Source of the DNA: Salminus brasiliensis
Taxonomy: Eukaryota > Chordata > Actinopteri > Characiformes > Bryconidae
DNA length: 64,000 nt
Assembly (NCBI RefSeq): GCF_030463535.1
Contig: NC_132888.1
Location: 23,959,269 to 24,023,268, forward strand
Reading direction: 5' to 3'
The notes under the pieces were generated by a model that had not been told where the DNA came from, made no database searches, and was given only the letters and a program-made list of their open reading frames with translations. This document shows, in pieces, positions 3,025 through 64,000 of the stretch (its first letter is position 1; every line of letters begins with the position of its first letter). Both the position numbers and the translations under genes were made by a program.

Positions 3025-3789
3025 GAATCAGAGAACCAGAGGCTGAATAAGCCCCTCCACCAAAACAAGCCTAGAATTGGTCCTGGGTGTGGACTTATGT
3101 ATTTGGGACAAATAAAAAACCAGCGGGAAATAATTCACAAGTGAATCAACTGCCAACATGGCCAGGTAAGTCCAACCTAGCAACTTCAGCCTAATTGATA
3201 AAATCATCAGTCATTACAGGACCTAGAAGAAACCTTCGCTGTCGAATAAACATTAACTGTGAAAGAGCTACCTGTAGGTCCAGTAATGGCATTTTAGGAT
3301 TGTTGGAGACGTCTTTACACGTCTTGTGGTCTGCTCTTGGGCTTAACTCACTAGAATGGCCTGACCTGGCCATGTTGGCTGTTGTTTCATACGTAAATTA
3401 ATTTGCAGAGAGTGGAGAGGCTGATTTCTAATTGTGAGATCTTTTAAAAAACCCTTCCCAGACTCCTCTGCATCTAACTTTCTCCTCACAAGAAAATTAC
3501 ATCTGTTTTCATAACCTTTCCCAAATAATTTTTAAAAGGCATTTCTTCGGTTGTATGTGTTTAGTTACACCACCTCCATCTCCCAATATTGTCCAAATGA
3601 CAATGACATGTCTATATGAATAAATGTGATTAAAAAGGCAAATGTTTTCATGGGGTGTCCTAACATTTTCACAGGAAAACCAAACGTCTCTCTCCTTCTT
3701 GATTCTGAAGGTCACAAGATCCCTATATGGGCAGAAATAGGCTCTTTGCCAAACAATCTTTGACAGAAGTTATGAAGCTGGTTACTTAA

Positions 3790-18115: not shown

Positions 18116-19355
18116 TCATGCCTTTAGGGTCATAAAAGTTGTCAGAACTGCGCTGACAACCAGCATGGTGTTAACAAACACAACATTACATCTAGAATAA
18201 AAGACTTCTCGACCATTCAGAGGCTGCACTGGCCGAAACGTTCCCACCATGGGAGCACCATCTTCAAACTGGAGAGCTGAGAATGCGGACAGCTGTAAAA
18301 TACAGGGCAAAACGTCAGCTGAATGTGTTGTAGAATGAGGCCACAATATGTCCTTAAAGACGTCCTATCTCAGGCTTGTCGATCTCATTCACTGCTCATG
18401 TTGTTTTGCAAGTTTTCATGTTGTGACTGGCTGTCCAGACTATCAAAAATCAATCTGCATACAGCATAGATATGCCAACAATTTTGGATTTGGGCTGGCG
18501 GTCTGAACATAGTCTTAGTGTCCAGGTCATTTTGGAATTGATTTTTAAATGATACCACCAATGTTTTTTAAAGTGACCAGAATGTAAACCACAGACTATC
18601 GTTCTGTTACTTTTATTGTTATAAAGTGATTGGTTAATGATATCTCTTTTTTCATGAACCGAAAATGCTAAAATATCATTTGTCCAGCAGATGGCCACAT
18701 TGCGGGATATTAAAAGCACAGACAATCCAGACTAGAAATCCTTTCTCCGACTTTATTTCAGAAAATTTGGTTCAGGTATGAAAGCTTTGACAAAGCTTTT
18801 AGCCCCCAAGGTCTGAAAAACCTTTTTTAAAACTTGGACCTGGCTCATTTAATTCCGGTCTAATCTCACAATATTGTCTCTGTATTTTATTAGTATGAAT
18901 GAAAACAGACCCTTATGTGATGTTTAAATTCTATTATTTACATTATAATGTCTGTTACATTTTTTTCCCCAGAGTGGAATATACAATATATACATACAAT
19001 ATGTGGGTAAAACTATTGGGACACTTGCTCATTCGTTGTTTCTTCAGAAATCAAAAGTATTAGGAAAGAGTGTATCCTGCTTTTGTTGGAGTGACTGTCT
19101 CTACTGAGATTTTGGAGCATTGCTGTGAGGATTTGATTGCATTCAGTGACAAGAGTGCACCTCATCCCCAACTCCCCTAACTCTCCATCCCAAATGTACT
19201 GGATGGAGCACCATCCATAATTTCAGAGAAAACAGTTCTTCCACTGCTCCATAGCTCTATGCTGTGGGGGTTTTATATCCCTCCAGCCCACGCCTAGCAT
19301 TAGGCATGGCGTCCTATTCTATTGGCAGCACATCTGAACTACAAGACTAGACATG

Positions 19356-19417
<62 letters not shown>

Positions 19418-20558
19418 ACATCTATGGGATGGGTGCAACTTAAAGCAACTGAAAGCATTCATTAGAAGGGGTGTCCACAAACATGTGGATATCCCATAAC
19501 CTACTTGTTCCTTGCTGAGCAGGATGGCATCTTCGAAAACTGTCCAAATGACTGACTCTGTGCAGCCGGGGGTTGTGAGGGAGCCCTTGTAGCGGAAGTA
19601 GCTGGTCAGCATACTGTGGGAAGGGATAAGCAAGTCCAAAGACAAGGACTGAAGTGTCGTACTGTTGCCTGTAAAGGAACAAAGTCAGCTAAAGTGCTCA
19701 GCTTCTGTTGCTCAGTACATGAACAGTAACAGAATGGTTTGTGATGAAAACGCAGTTCAAGCAATAAGCTTTGACCTTTAGTCCTCTTCTGGTGAGCCAT
19801 AAAACATAATAAAGAAAGGTGCTTCTCAGACACAAACGGAAAAAAGAACATGACAATGGATGGAGCAATAAATATGTGAAATTTACCAGGGTGTGCGATA
19901 TTTGCCAGTGCGTTTATGATGGATTCATATTTTTTGTTTGAGCTTCCTGTTTCCTGTGAAATGAGAAAGTACAGTTAATCCATTGCCACTATAAAGCACA
20001 TTTAGTAGCTACATTAGTCTTTTTTCAGTATGTCAAGCATATCAGCATATATATATTTTTTTTTGTTTTTTTTTTGCTTTTATTATAAAAAAGGTGACCT
20101 GGAACAAAAATCCAAGAACCGCCACACCAGATGGGTCTGTAAGAGCTTCTTCTACAGATCTGTACATTTCCTTTATGTGAACAATATGCATCTAGGAAGA
20201 GAAGATTTTCATGAATCAGTACAAATTATAAAGCACACACGCATATATATATATTATTAAATACTACTACTACTAATAATTGTGGTTTCATGTAAACAAT
20301 TAAGCAACAGAACTGCCTTAGAAGATTTGATCCTGCTTTTGTTGGAGTAACTGTCTGATTTCTATTAAATTTCCAGGAGCATTGCTGTGAAGATTTGATT
20401 GCATTCAGTGACTAAAGCATTACTGAGGTCAGAATGTTAGACGCCTCACGACCCCACCTCATCATCCCCAACTTTCCAACTCATTCTAAATGTATTGGAT
20501 GGAGCATCATCCATCATACTAGACACAATTCTTCATATATAAATCATATTAAAAAATC

Positions 20559-20589
<31 letters not shown>

Positions 20590-21983
20590 TCATAAATTGA
20601 TAACACTTTAAACAGCCTCAAACAGTCTGTGGCCTGCCACCAGTCCCAAAGTGTTAAAAAACTTTAAGGGCGTTAGATTGGGTAAAGGTGAATATAAAGG
20701 ATAATAGTATACATAAATATAAATAGTGACAATGTAGATGATACACTATATTACTTTACTACAGTTTGAGCAAGTTTACTTATGTTTGTAAAAACTTAAA
20801 AATAAACTAAATGGAAAATATTAGCAAATTTTTAAGCAAGTTTTACTGTGAAATATTAACTTCAGATGTTCTACTTTACTTTACCTAAGATAAAGTGGTA
20901 AAATAGTACAATGTTAGACTTAAACTGAAACTTTTTAATTTGTAAATAGTGTTTTTGAGACCAAGGCTATTATCTCAATACTAATTGTTTGTGATTTTTC
21001 TCAGCAAAAACAATAACAATAATGTGGATATTAAAATGTTTACAGTATTTGGAAGAACATTAACTAAACTGCCACATAAACAAACTGATTAGTGACATAA
21101 CTACATTTATTTGCTACTCGTTTTTTGTTTGTTTGTTTTTTATTTATTTATTTATTTATTTATTTATTTGTATTTTTTTATTTTATTTTTTTTTGCATTT
21201 ATTTTTAACATCAACATGCCTAGCCCTCAAACCTTGAAAGCAGCCTGGTTGCTAACTTTGTAAACTTCACCAACACCAGTCCTAGGTTTAACAGCTTACT
21301 TCTAACACAGCTACAACATCTCAGCATTAGCCAGTGGCTAGCATTCCTCCAATATCTATACCTCCATGGGGTACTGCTCTCCATCAATGGTGTGCTCTGA
21401 TCCAGGGCTGCCATTCTTGCCCCAGTGGAAATGGATTTCCATTGCTTTGTAATTTGACTCCAACTCTCCTCCGTTAATCTGTGCAGCGCCCGATAAATTG
21501 ACCTTGGCTGAAGATGAAAAAAAATAAGCGTGAAGTAGGCAAATCTTTCCACAGATGGTAACTGTGAGCTCGTATTGATCACAGTGTCCTCTGTAATCGT
21601 GCCAGCCCAAGACTGGCATGTGTCGAAAGCTCTTTGAAATGTATTTCATTTCATATCTTTTGATTTTGTGTGAGATTACCTGTGTGACCATTGTTTGTGA
21701 TGACGCTATGAAAGGTTTCTTGGTAACTATAAAATTCAAGTGCTGTGAGGGACTTCTTAAAAGTAATCTTCTTTGTTACAAGATTTATAGGTGACTGGCT
21801 TGTTCCTCCACAGGTTGGCGCTATGTCTGCCCATTCGTTTGGTCCTACGGAAACAAAATGCAATGTCATTTCATAAAAAACAAACAAAAAAAAAACATTT
21901 TTGTGTATTTTAAGCTTAAATGAATGATTGTAATTCACCTTTGCACTTGTGGTCACAGGAGACCTGGGACTCGTAGCACCACT
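18116..21983 (-). CDS. ca4: GPI-anchored carbonic anhydrase, CA4 type (first exon not found)
   Basis: Extracellular membrane-anchored alpha-carbonic anhydrase (CO2 hydration, acid-base and ion transport at epithelia). Seven consecutive exons join in phase: 21939-21983, 21680-21844, 21362-21507, 20099-20191, 19887-19953, 19505-19668, 18116-18292, about 285 residues. The mature N-terminus EWCYESQVSC is typical of CA4. Then come CGGTSQSPIN, zinc ligands in HFHWG and MHIVH, and the active-site threonine in SLTTPGC. The last exon ends in a hydrophobic stretch (VVFVNTMLVVSAVLTTF) with no charged tail, a GPI-attachment signal. The signal-peptide exon should lie upstream of 21983 but was not recognised. 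The donor after exon 20099-20191 is a weak GTCACC. CA15 is the alternative family; the WCY...C N-terminus favours CA4. Confidence 0.9.
19012..19488 (-). mobile_element. Family B dispersed element in the last ca4 intron
   Basis: Reverse-oriented copy with the landmarks 'gagcattgctgtgaggattt', 'ggatggagcaccatccat' and the terminal 'gtgtccacaaacatgtgg'. It carries a (TG)n run at 19357-19416. Its right end stops roughly 13-15 bp from the splice donor that follows ca4 exon 19505-19668, so it sits against the exon on the intron side. Confidence 0.7.
19357..19416. repeat. (TG)n microsatellite
   Basis: About 30 uninterrupted TG units (CA on the coding strand) within a ca4 intron, inside the family B element. 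Confidence 0.95.
20330..20530 (-). mobile_element. Family B element fragment
   Basis: Partial copy with 'ggagcattgctgtgaagatt', 'gcattcagtgactaaagcat' and 'ggatggagcatcatccatca', in the ca4 intron between exons 20099-20191 and 21362-21507. The termini are missing. Confidence 0.6.
20560..20590. repeat. (AT)n microsatellite
   Basis: Short AT dinucleotide run within the same ca4 intron. A (TTTA)n run follows at about 21138-21168 in the intron. Confidence 0.8.
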
Positions 21984-22189: not shown

Positions 22190-22690
22190 TTATATACAGG
22201 GTCCATTTCATTTGGTTAAATTTCCCTTAGCCAGTTGCACCTTGATCAGATGCTTTTGGTAGCCATCCACAAACGTCTGGCAGAATTCTGATTCGATATT
22301 TGAATGCTCTTTCTAACAGAATTGGTTCAGTTTAGTTACATGGGTTGGTTTCCTGGGACTGACCTGAAACCCAGAAAGCTTTGGGAAAGCATAATGTCAG
22401 GCTTCTTCATCCATTCCACAACCACCTTTCATGTGTTTTTGGGGTCACTGTCCTGTTAGGTAGTCCTCCTTTTTCATTACTCCTTCCACTTTGTGAGATG
22501 GACCAGTTCTAAAGCAGCACCAGAACTGTTTGCTACCTTCCTTATGCTAAACATCTTTGTCTTATATGATCATAAAACATTCCACCATAAGGTTTTTTCT
22601 TGGTCCATGTGATCAGTTGCACACTGGAGGCAAGCTTGCTGTTGTAGTTGAGCACCTGGAGACATTCCTAAATTGAGTAAATCTACACAC
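22190..22690. mobile_element. Dispersed-repeat fragment of unassigned DNA element
   Basis: Non-coding stretch with phrases such as 'cataaaacattccaccataa' and 'tggtccatgtgatcag', of a type seen in interspersed fish DNA elements. No open frame or terminal repeat was found. It adjoins the LINE tail at 22700. Confidence 0.35.
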
Positions 22691-34269: not shown

Positions 34270-34360
34270 AAGAATACAGTGCTTTCATCCATAAAGTAAA
34301 AAGCACTACTAAATGTTCTATACAGTGTAGTGTTTCCTACTTTATGGACGAGTGGACTGT
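34270..34360. repeat. Imperfect inverted repeat (stem-loop)
   Basis: Left arm 'catccataaagta' and right arm 'tactttatggacgag' enclose a second nested pair 'agcactac' / 'gtagtgt'. The whole could fold as a hairpin of roughly 80 nt. Probably the centre of another small non-autonomous element. Confidence 0.45.
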
Positions 34361-36665: not shown

Positions 36666-38055
36666 TTAGTCCCAAGGCAGCGCTTGAAGGAAATTTGATG
36701 GCACAAGCCCACGATAACCATGTAGATCTCCCTGGAACAATGCAAGAATTTTAATACCTTTAATATCTTGGTTCATCTTTGAATTTGCAACAAGGGAAAA
36801 GCTGGTAGCTGGAAAGGAAGGCTGTGATACTTACATAATAAAAACCGTCACTGTCCACGTCTCCAAACACGTAGATGATATCTCCTGCTCGGAAAGGAAG
36901 CTCGTCCTGCAAAACAAATCATCATTTTGATTTGTCCCAAGAATTTGTCCCAATGAACACCCAATGATCCTAACAGGACACACTACATCTGTGCACAGTC
37001 ACCTCAATGTCCATGTTGGGGGAGCTTTCCCAGGGGTCATAATCGAAAATGGCCACCATCCTGTGGACTGCCTCATCATCAGGCATGCTGGATGACTCGC
37101 TAGGCGCTGATAATAAGACACAACACAATTCAGTGGAAATGGCCATCATGTGAAACTTCGAGCCAATCCTTGCTTGGTGACAAGCTGGCAAGCTATGTAT
37201 ATATAAAGCCTGAGTAAGAAGTGTAAGAAATAGAAAAATACCTATAGAGTGTCCTGGGGACTCCTCAGGGAGAAAGCCTTGTTTGAATAGTTGAAGTTTG
37301 AGCTCTCCATCTTCTACAGGGATCTCAGACACCATATTACTTGGTACGAACCCCAAGCGACCAGCCAGTTCCCCTTGGTAGAAGCCATCAGCATCTTTAT
37401 CGCCGAAAACCTGATGAAAACATTTGCGTATTAGTCGTTGGTTTCCAATTCGCTACCAGATAATGGGACGGTCTCTCTGGGAATACCAGGTGTTGTAAGC
37501 TTTTCTAATCCTGCAAACAATTAAAGCTTACATTTCCATGTTATTTACATCTTTTGCACAAATTTGTAGTTGAAACTCTTTTCTGTTGTAAATGTTAATC
37601 TTTGCTTGACATTTTACCATTACTGCAATATTGCAATATTCAACAGCCAGTAAATGTCTAGCTAATACCTGTACTGAAACAAGGCTGTGTGCCCAACCGG
37701 AATGTACTGTGAACTTGTTGTCTTATCGTTTGCTAGATTATATTAAAAGCACCAGCCAGGCCAATAACAACAAATAATTCTTTAGCAGTCTGTACAATGT
37801 CAAGATAACGTTTACCTTAATTATCTGTCCCGGTTCAAAAGACAGCTCCTCCTGCATTGTCTCAGGGTTAGGAGACATCACAGCGGGATTGTACGAGAAA
37901 AGAGCCACAAAAACACGTACACTTGGGTCATACATCTCCCTCTCTTGCTCCCACCTTTCCACATCTTCTGGCGTAGCCACCCTCAAACCATCTGGATACA
38001 GATAAACATCCACTCCGATCATTTCAGTCCAACTCCTTTTTGGCAGCGGTTCAGA
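36666..38055 (-). CDS. RIM-binding protein-like C-terminus with two SH3 domains (tspoap1-like), 5' end not found
   Basis: Family role: scaffolds that bind RIMs and calcium channels through SH3 domains at presynaptic active zones. Exons 37816-38055, 37242-37410, 37003-37106, 36835-36906, 36666-36731 join in phase with good splice sites and end at TAA. SH3-II: FVALFSYNPAVMSPNPE, EELSFEPGQIIK / VFGDKDADGFYQGE, GFVPSNMVSEI. SH3-III: VHRMVAIFDYDPWESSPN, DELPFRAGDIIYVFGD, DGFYY / GDLHGYRGLVPSNFLQ. The tail after VPSNFL is only six residues, much shorter than in the human family members I recall. No fibronectin or first-SH3 exon is visible between 38.06 kb and ywhag. The product may be a 5'-truncated remnant or a short gene starting at the ATG at 38022, which would give 205 aa. 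TSPOAP1 fits better than RIMBP2 by sequence and by human chromosome 17 synteny with ca4 and dhrs11. Confidence 0.8.
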
Positions 38056-46399: not shown

Positions 46400-52507
<6,108 letters not shown>

Positions 52508-61258: not shown

Positions 61259-61673
61259 ACCATTAGACCACCAAACTCTTATACCAGTTGATGCCATTGA
61301 TACAGAGCCCCTAAAGTATCAATGTACAAAAATAATATTTAGAGATAAATAACGTTCCTTCAAATATTTATGAATGATAAATTGATTCCTTTCATGTAAC
61401 AATTGGTTATCTCTGTAGTCATGTAATATGTTCCCTCAATTTGACAAATAATTCCCTCCATTTCATCTACTGTTTTAGGTAAACTGAGAGAATGAGTCAT
61501 TAAAATAACATTTTGAGTAATAAAATATTTTTATTTGATATTATATTTCTTTGATACTCTGTCCTTTTACATTATGTGAAGTTTCCATGATAATTAAATT
61601 GCATTGTGCAAAAATGGAACACAGTTTCGTCCAAAATTACTAAATCATGGGTTCTTAAGTATATATATATATA

Positions 61674-61871
61674 CAGTGGGGAGAACAAGTATTTGATACA
61701 CTGCTGATTTTTCAGGTTTTCCCACTTGCAAAGCATGTAGAAGACTGTAATTTTTATCATAGGTACTCTTCAACTGTGAGTGATGGAATCTAAAACAAAA
61801 ATCCAGAAAAATACATTGTATGATTTTTAAATAATTAATTTCCATTTTATTGTGGGAAATAAGTATTTGAT
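61674..61871 (+). repeat. Left terminal inverted repeat of the Tc1 element
   Basis: Starts 'cagtggggagaacaagtatt' and ends 'gggaaataagtatttgat'. It is complementary to 63082-63279 with no mismatch seen. Direct repeat motif 'aagtatttgat' at about 61688 and 61861. Confidence 0.93.
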
Positions 61872-62041
61872 CATCTATCAACCAGTAAGAATTTTGGCTC
61901 TCACAGACATGTTACTTCTTCTTTACGAAGCCCTCCTGTTCTCCACTCATTACCTGTATTAACTGCACCTGTTTGAACTCGTTACCTGTATAAAAGACAC
62001 CTGTCCACACACTCAATCAGTCAGACTCCAGCATCTCCACA

Positions 62042-63064
62042 ATGCCCAAGACCAGAGAGCTTTGTAAGGACATCAGGGATAAAATTGTAGACCTGCACAA
62101 GGCTGGGATGGGCTACAGGACAATAGGCAAGCAGCTTGGTGAGAAGGCAACAACTGTTGGTGCAATTATTAGAAAATGGAAGAAATGCAAAATAACGGAT
62201 AATCTCCCTCGGTCTGGGGCGCCATGCAAGATCTCACCTCGTGGAGCATCAATGATCTTGAGGAAGGTGAGGAATGAGCCCAGAATTACATGGCAGGACC
62301 TGGTCAATGACCTGAATAGAGCTGGGACCACAGTCTCAAAGAAAACAATCAGTAACACTCTACGCCGTCAAGGATTAAAATCCTGCAGTGCACGCAAGGT
62401 GCCCTTCCTCAAGCCAACGCATGTCAAAGCCCGTCTGAAGTTTGCAAATGACCATCTGAATGATCCAGAGGAGGAATGGGAGAAGGTCATGTGGTCTGAT
62501 GAGACAAAAATAGAACTTTTTGGTTTAAACTCCACTCGTCATGTTTGGAGGAAGAAGAATGATGAGTACAACCCCAAGAACACCATCCCAACCGTGAAGC
62601 ATGGCGGTGGAAACATCATTCTTTGGGGATGCTTTTCTGCAAAGGGGACAGGACGACTGCACCGTATTGTGGGAAGGATGGATGGGGCCATGTATCGTGA
62701 GATTTTGGCCAACAACCTCCTTCCCTCAGTAAGAGCACTGAAGATGGGTCGTGGCTGGGTCTTCCAGCATGATAACGACCCAAAACACACAGCCAGGGCA
62801 ACTAAAGAGTGGCTCCGTAGGAAACATCTTAAGGTCCTGGAGTGGCCTAGCCAGTCTCCAGACCTGAATCCAATAGAAAATCTTTGGAGGGAGCTTAAAG
62901 TCCGTGTGGCCCAGCGACAGCCACGAAACCTGAAGGCTCTGGAGGAGATCTGTATGGAGGAGTGGGCCAAAATCCCTGCTGCAGTGTGTGCAAACCTTGT
63001 CAAGAACTACAGGAAACGTCTCATCTCTGTAATTGCAAACAAAGGTTTCTGTACCAAATATTAA
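62042..63064 (+). CDS. Tc1-like DD34E transposase, intact
   Basis: Cut-and-paste transposase of the IS630/Tc1/mariner superfamily; it binds the terminal repeats and inserts at TA. 340 aa, the normal full length, with no stop or frameshift. Residues 1-110 form a paired-like double helix-turn-helix DNA-binding region ([20 protein letters not shown], then [21 protein letters not shown]) with a GRPR-like variant RSGAPCK between the halves. The catalytic triad is visible as D in [13 protein letters not shown] in [12 protein letters not shown] and E in [15 protein letters not shown], spaced as DD34E. The C-terminus ends [13 protein letters not shown]. The start is the first ATG after the left repeat and leader. 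It is the only intact mobile-element gene in the window. Confidence 0.96.
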
Positions 63065-63081
63065 GTTTCTTTTTCTGGTGT

Positions 63082-63279
63082 ATCAAATACTTATTTCCCA
63101 CAATAAAATGGAAATTAATTATTTAAAAATCATACAATGTATTTTTCTGGATTTTTGTTTTAGATTCCATCACTCACAGTTGAAGAGTACCTATGATAAA
63201 AATTACAGTCTTCTACATGCTTTGCAAGTGGGAAAACCTGAAAAATCAGCAGTGTATCAAATACTTGTTCTCCCCACTG
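63082..63279 (-). repeat. Right terminal inverted repeat of the Tc1 element
   Basis: Exact inverted match of 61674-61871, ending 'gttctccccactg' before TA. It begins 18 bp after the transposase stop codon. Confidence 0.93.
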
Positions 63280-63291
63280 TATATACATATA

Positions 63292-64000
63292 CAGTCATGC
63301 CCGAAAGTATTCATACCCCTGGAAAAATTTGACTTAAATTTACTTTTATTTAACCAGAAGTTATATTTTTGCCTTGAAACGACACAGGCATCTCCCAGGA
63401 GATAACACGATGATGTACAAGAGGCATCATTGTGGGAAAAAGTATTTCTCAGCTTTTATACACATTTGAACAAAAAGTGGCATGTCCAAAATTATTCATA
63501 CCCTTTGAAAACTGTCACAGTATATGGGAAAATCCAAAGTTCTATACCATTCCAAATAGTCCAAGCTGTTTTAAAGCATCCTAATTACCCTGATTCATTG
63601 GGAACAGCTGTTTTAATCAACTCAACAGGAGAAAAACAGCAGCTCTCTGCAGTTGGTTTGTGGACAGTCATGGCTAAGACAAAGGAGCTCACTAAGGACC
63701 TGCGGCTGTGCATTGTGGCCGCTCACAAGTCAGGAAAGGGCTATAAAGCCATATCAAAATGTTTTCAAGTTCCAGTGGCTACAGTGCAAAGTATTATTAA
63801 AAAATACAAGAAGTTCCGCACTGTGGAAAATCTCAGATGATGTGGTCGGAAGCCAAAAGTGACACCTGTGCTGGCCAGGAGAATAGTGAGAGAGGTGAAA
63901 AAAAATCCAAGGATCACCACCAAGGCCATCCTGGTGAATCTGGACTCTGCTGGTGGCGACATCTCAAGGCAGACAGTTCAACGGACACTGCACACTGCTG
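63292..64000 (+). mobile_element. Second Tc1-like transposon, 5' part, running off the window
   Basis: Left end 'cagtcatgcccgaaagtatt' after TA (63290-63291), unrelated to the repeats of the element 12 bp to its left, so it is a different Tc1 family. An inner repeat-like 'aaattattcatacccttt' is near 63490-63508. Its right half lies beyond 64000. Confidence 0.85.
63670..64000 (+). pseudogene. Tc1 transposase N-terminus with premature stop
   Basis: From the ATG at 63670: MAKTKELTKDLRLCIVAAHK, then YKAISKCFQVPVATVQSIIK and KKFRTVENLR, followed by a TGA at 63838-63840. The frame then continues CGRKPKVTPVLARRIVREVK and PRITTKAILVNL, as expected of a Tc1 transposase in which the codon for a residue of the linker became a stop. 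The protein is therefore inactive unless the stop is a sequencing error. The catalytic domain is outside the window. Confidence 0.85.

Follow-up and report, generated by a model that had tools for sequence, protein, structure and literature searches.

A structurally complete Tc1-like transposon in Salminus brasiliensis belongs to a young family burst of about 320 copies

We describe a Tc1-like transposon in a 64,000-nucleotide stretch of the Salminus brasiliensis genome (C11:23959269-24023268, hereafter the window), and conclude with a probability of roughly 0.93 that it is an autonomous cut-and-paste element of the IR/DR DD34E/Tc1 type and a member of a young burst that produced about 320 copies. 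The family is a young, star-like burst, and its present mobility is possible.

Results

The element is complete, spans 1606 bp at positions 61674-63279 of the window (plus strand) and has CAGT tips; these limits follow from its ends, open reading frame and flanks, and the 40 genome matches scored below cover 1605 or 1606 of its bases. The left (61674-61871, plus strand, tip CAGT) and right (63082-63279, minus strand) terminal inverted repeats are each 198 bp long and complementary at 198 of 198 positions, the first mismatch falling at base 199 of the end. Each end contains an outer and an inner direct repeat at a spacing of 174 bp. On the left, the outer repeat (61677-61697, plus strand), a probable transposase site by analogy with Sleeping Beauty (SB), is 81% like the copy 174 bp inwards (61851-61871, plus strand; both of repeat family D5), and on the right the inner (63078-63102) and outer (63252-63276) repeats, both on the minus strand, belong to repeat family D4. 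Long terminal inverted repeats (198 bp) carrying direct repeats (174 bp apart) are the ends of a DD34E/Tc1 element, and a perfect 198-bp inverted repeat enclosing a Pfam-supported transposase is not a product of chance. A reading made from the sequence alone had called a transposon at 61674-63279 with perfect 198-bp ends and an intact 340-codon DD34E transposase, and we confirm that call. Two motifs of putative function accompany the gene: a TATA-box-like TATAAAA (61989-61995, plus strand) 53 bp upstream of the start codon, and an AATAAA inside the right end (63102-63107, plus strand) that may act as a poly(A) signal. CpG retention gave no sign of youth: the ends are devoid of CpG, and the element as a whole (observed/expected 0.322) is equalled or exceeded in 404 of 624 stretches of the same size in the window.

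The transposase (340 aa; 62042-63064, plus strand) is encoded by a frame free of inner stops. Pfam returned HTH_SB (2.5e-23), HTH_Tnp_Tc3_2 (1.9e-27) and DDE_3 (2.7e-14), that is, paired helix-turn-helix (HTH) domains followed by a DDE domain. The catalytic triad is D153, D244 and E279, with 34 residues between the second D and the E as in DD34E enzymes, and all three residues are present in 35 of 35 representative copies. The two HTH DNA-binding subdomains (about residues 1-120; 62042-62401, plus strand) also match the solved SB fragments 2m8e and 5unk. Codon 84 (62291-62293, plus strand) encodes R in 32 of the 35 representative copies and W in the remaining three, the focal one counted; this R84W change lies in the second HTH region of the DNA-binding domain and arose by a base change at a CpG site. 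The interdomain linker reads KVPFLK (62396-62413, plus strand), and its PFL core is found in the focal copy and in 35/35 representative copies. The accessible part of PMC9777934 reports a PLL core for the SB and ZB groups as highly conserved and not strictly required; here it is replaced by PFL, and since the family did spread, a PFL linker was presumably no bar in the source copy. A simple pattern search for a GRPR-like motif returned only RSGAP at residue 57.

We searched the assembly (1,066,335,885 bases, 1.07 Gb, in 103 contigs) for further copies. A coding 35-mer of the transposon had 280 exact matches and 327 with up to 3 mismatches assembly-wide, against 0 for a reversed control pattern, and a 42-mer from the ends had 643 matches when as many as 3 mismatches were allowed (0 for the control), or about two per coding copy; such k-mer counts are reported as whole, and for large families they can be lower bounds, some stretches of sequence being given as N. 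The genome thus holds about 320 family copies. Because the end count is about twice the coding count, solo ends are few and miniature derivatives do not make up a large set. Only 47 of the 327 coding matches fell in the class with 1-3 mismatches, where about 74% would be expected at 5% divergence and about 51% at 10%, so there is little sign of older family copies up to about 10% divergence. The 35-mer count mostly misses copies diverged beyond about 15%, and such relatives exist: one of 77% identity, in the flank of copy L041, belongs to a different subfamily. Within the window we found no other close copy, only weak relics; weak tblastn matches to the transposase mark degraded Tc1 relics at 982-1053, 3275-3388 (E = 0.015 only) and 22211-22455.

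A first look at the genome had given 4784 candidates, probably for the most part more diverged relatives or noise, the best 40 of which were scored, the focal copy among them. These best 40 of 4784 align over 1606 (35 copies) or 1605 bases (5 copies), and in the aligned part, which is free of gaps, 0-5 bases separate them from the focal copy. By their flanks they represent 36 independent insertions, from which the representative set (n = 35, L018 and L027 taken together) was drawn; segmental duplicates among them comprise two copies on C2 and four on C14. The C14 copies (L009, L010, L021 and L047, at 21.7-24.2 Mb) are a single insertion seen four times, with near-identical flanks across about 2.4 Mb, and this is a segmental duplication that postdates the insertion. 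The flank of the fourfold insertion looks LINE-like by eye. A strictly intact frame is present in 33 of the best 40 matches; four of the other seven have lost the stop codon and three carry premature stops. As these 40 copies were picked by similarity, we take no family ages from them.

The target site is TA. The focal TAs lie at 61672-61673, within a (TA)n tract, and at 63280-63281, adjoining the right end. The sequence-only reading had pointed to TA on both sides, and this is indeed seen; in a (TA)n tract such flanks are uninformative by themselves, and the point is settled by the other copies, 31 of the 35 representative insertions and 19 of 20 copies of a systematic sample being flanked by TA on both sides, with a run of at least 4 TA at only 13 of those 35. 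Just 12 bp to the right of the focal element begins a Tc1-like element from a different family (63292-64000, plus strand), older and dead, which extends 907 bp past the window end. It has an in-frame TGA at 63838-63840, K instead of E as the third catalytic residue, and ends that differ at 8 of about 214 positions. Copy L048 is listed together with this neighbouring dead element (63292-64000).

Elsewhere in the window we noted a mir-142 precursor (34277-34360; Rfam RF01896, 90.7 bits) and, near it, an SH3-domain exon (36973-37452, minus strand) that is RIM-binding-protein-like by eye, an arrangement we take to be that of TSPOAP1 in human. A 14-3-3 coding exon (51764-52507; Pfam 1.2e-98) is by eye presumably of the gamma type, ywhag. 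Carbonic anhydrase exons occupy 19322-21775 on the minus strand (Pfam) and look CA4-like by eye.

To date the family we used a systematic sample of 20 copies, taken as the first 20 when every third of 70 places was chosen among about 100 matches listed of the 280; all lie on C1-C4, and an exact match to the 35-mer was the sole criterion of choice, a slight bias to young copies. Substitutions from the majority sequence numbered 2-10 per copy (mean 5.15, variance 4.13 in 1606 bp), L063 carrying one more than these statistics count. With the selected 35-mer sites excluded, mean divergence from the majority is 0.33%, or about 0.80 Myr at 4.13e-9 per site per year, a zebrafish value given in the available portion of PMC7913693 that may not fit S. 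brasiliensis. Copy L041 matches the majority sequence exactly. Two bases set the focal copy apart from that sequence, one upstream of the open reading frame and one causing R84W, and these 2 substitutions in 1606 bp would correspond to 0.30 Myr (95% limits 0.04-1.1 Myr). The sequence-only reading had proposed a recent insertion, a view that would suffer if the genome held only old, diverged copies. Our search for copies instead found hundreds of near-identical ones, about 320, with 0.33% mean divergence (n = 20), and this supports a recent insertion.

All 20 systematic copies reach both ends, 19 aligning in one piece and L063 in two pieces separated, upstream of the open reading frame, by a gap of about 107 bp; the frame of L063 is open and its left end present. 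Eleven of the 20 have a strictly intact frame and nine do not; L063 is not counted among the 11, nor is L077, which has lost one codon. Indels were found by script in 9/20, L063 being a tenth. We saw no selection for function among either the systematic copies or the 35 most similar insertions. The 75 codon substitutions of the former comprise 51 non-synonymous, 20 synonymous and 4 nonsense changes, and the 42 of the latter 34, 5 and 3. Under neutrality, 72%, 24% and 4% would be expected.

We asked whether the burst is over. In the reading we hold to be probable, transposition was over some hundred thousand years ago and the copies are young, silent leftovers. The substitution counts are not wider than a Poisson spread, and frames are decaying, 9/20 systematic copies being not strictly intact. 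If the family had instead continued to transpose evenly up to now, then its ages would be uniform and the spread of counts too wide for what was observed (simulated P = 0.0007), whereas a single pulse fits (P = 0.30). The variance test asks whether the copies radiate star-like from a single source; distance from the majority gives no date for an individual insertion, since non-majority parents pass on their own changes. Against a finished burst it counts that the sample comprises 20 of about 320 copies, and that secondary lineages imply transposition continuing after the first copies. In the 55-copy set (the 40 and the 20 less five duplicates, one of them L072, which coincides with L019 of the 40), T1389G occurs in 7 and A1102T in 5, and five pairs of copies at different sites have 2-3 variants in common while differing by 2, 2, 2, 3 and 5 (L030/L037, L030/L073, L032/L066, L028/L044 and L022/L065). 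These pairs point to secondary sources, and late activity would therefore remain compatible with pulse-like counts.

That the family still transposes in S. brasiliensis, in which case the focal insertion may be segregating, is in our estimate the less probable outcome. Besides the variant-sharing pairs, the following speaks for it: there are about 320 copies, 11/20 of the sample have an intact frame, and L041 equals the majority sequence. In addition L046 and L064, about 5 kb apart on C1, share T776A, which is absent from the other copies among the 55, as a local hop would give. We also looked for an allelic empty site of the copy on unplaced contig C99 and found none: its left flank occurs only in C99, besides 65-67% matches on C1, and the joined C99 pieces are N over 30,000 of 82,598 bases.

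The identity of the two ends proved a poorer clock. In 2 of the 55 copies the same change appears mirrored in both ends, namely C169A with G1438T in L015 and T180G with A1427C in L027, and T180G is also present in L022 and L065, which lack the mirror change. Separate mutations are unlikely to have produced such mirrored changes, for which copying between the ends of one element is the simple cause. Zero differences between ends were also found in 4 of 19 sampled copies. Perfect ends could accordingly be read as homogenisation between arms, by gene conversion or gap repair, rather than as youth. We regard this as quite unlikely for the focal copy, since mirrored changes are confined to 2/55 copies and the divergence between copies gives youth independently. 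The mirrored changes do mean that the perfect focal ends add little to dating, the argument being carried by between-copy divergence. The interpretation in the sequence-only reading was thus borne out in part: recency stood, the present mobility it suggested is possible and agrees less well with the counts than a finished pulse does, and the perfect ends offered as evidence for recency turned out weaker than thought (4/19 copies with no end differences, mirrored changes in 2/55).

An artefact, whether contamination by some vector-like Tc1 or a repeat that was collapsed or wrongly assembled, has a negligible chance of explaining the element, and we found nothing in its favour. The 40 best matches stand for 36 independent insertions that differ in their flanks and nearly all carry private changes, and the window lies inside a 40.8-Mb contig.

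Plasmid and phage records contained no match to the element, and the end pattern had 0 matches in viral and prokaryote-genome collections; for a vertebrate element, the absence of look-alikes there is expected. Two viral and 16 prokaryote-genome stretches matched a short protein pattern, and none encodes a relative.

Discussion

The kind of element is already known, and the family is a young, well preserved, ordinary member of it. SB, the reference for comparison, is a DD34E/Tc1 element reconstructed from salmonid fossils, and its ends are likewise of the IR/DR type. The two have in common a transposase of about 340 aa, a TA target and the DD34E triad. They differ in that the focal element is a natural copy with a PFL linker, whereas the linker of SB100X is KKPLL. 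Against SB100X we counted 137 identities in 227 positions over residues 114-340 (60%, catalytic) and 47 in 107 in the aligned DNA-binding parts (44%). As far as the accessible text of PMC9777934 goes, SB-like elements have about 68% DDE identity to SB and the SB and ZB groups are 58-61% identical; our 60% is below the former and inside the latter range, with the reservation that domain limits may differ, and our 44% falls between the 34-38% and 54-55% published there for DNA-binding identities to SB. A 3' terminal inverted repeat overlapping the open reading frame is given as an SB feature in the same portion of PMC9777934, unlike the focal element, where the 3' repeat starts (63082) after the stop codon (63064). 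The element is not SB and probably not SB-like, and it appears to lean to the ZB/Passport side, a placement that comes from distances to SB and not from a tree.

Several described elements are similar. By its description in part of PMC7913693, zebrafish ZB (Tc1-8B_DR) is alike in its 1597 bp, 201-bp ends, 341 aa and young native copies, its terminal inverted repeats being given as 100% identical; membership of the focal element in the ZB or 'ZB-like' branch would follow only from distances to SB. Sections of PMC9777934 describe terminal inverted repeats of 180-300 bp in most SB/ZB elements, an AT-repeat preference in the four groups, more than 100 intact ZB-like copies in 26 species, and related elements tabulated for hundreds of ray-finned fish species. 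The salmonid elements DTSsa, SSTN1 and SALT1 are alike in CAGT tips, TA, an ITR of about 200 bp and a length of about 1600 bp, and long-ended Tc1 elements of salmonids are described as having spread in bursts from a master copy (both from PMC2198921, in part). Each of the six Group 1 primers (DTSsa1-related) given in the accessible part of PMC3516227 mismatches our element at 3-6 of 20-23 bases, so that the element is probably outside the DTSsa1-related group. Passport (PPTN, flatfish) is, by its description in the part of PMC4683633 available, a native fish Tc1 counted as naturally active; the available part of PMC7913693 places it instead among reconstructed elements. Partial texts further describe horizontal spread of such elements among fish and lampreys (PMC3516227), transcription of salmonid Tc1 elements (PMC1192797) and related elements in a fish parasite (PMC12441823). 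The end motifs of our element were not found in the literature searched, which does not show the family to be unnamed.

By analogy with SB, the transposase would bind the four direct repeats through its two HTH domains, and the ends would be paired, cut and reinserted at TA, often within AT repeats, copy number growing through gap repair or replication. At the zebrafish-derived rate the burst would fall within roughly the past million years; a single source sequence would have given rise to most of it and sub-sources would have followed, and the focal copy would be one structurally complete product of it. Weighing against this account are counts that suit a finished pulse better than steady activity, R84W in the focal transposase, a CpG content that is not raised, the lack of visible selection among copies, and the indels in the systematic sample. 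A bolder scenario, which we consider unlikely as a whole, has the element arriving in the lineage no more than about a million years ago, probably by horizontal transfer, and giving about 320 copies in a single pulse with neither older copies nor a miniature swarm, its PFL-linked transposase still moving and its ends kept identical by arm-to-arm conversion.

Identical ends are commonly read as a recent insertion. For a single copy they can mislead, and copy-to-copy divergence is the better clock. Should the family still be active, it would add one more to the natural vertebrate Tc1 elements usable for gene transfer, and would offer a chance to follow a burst and its silencing within one species.
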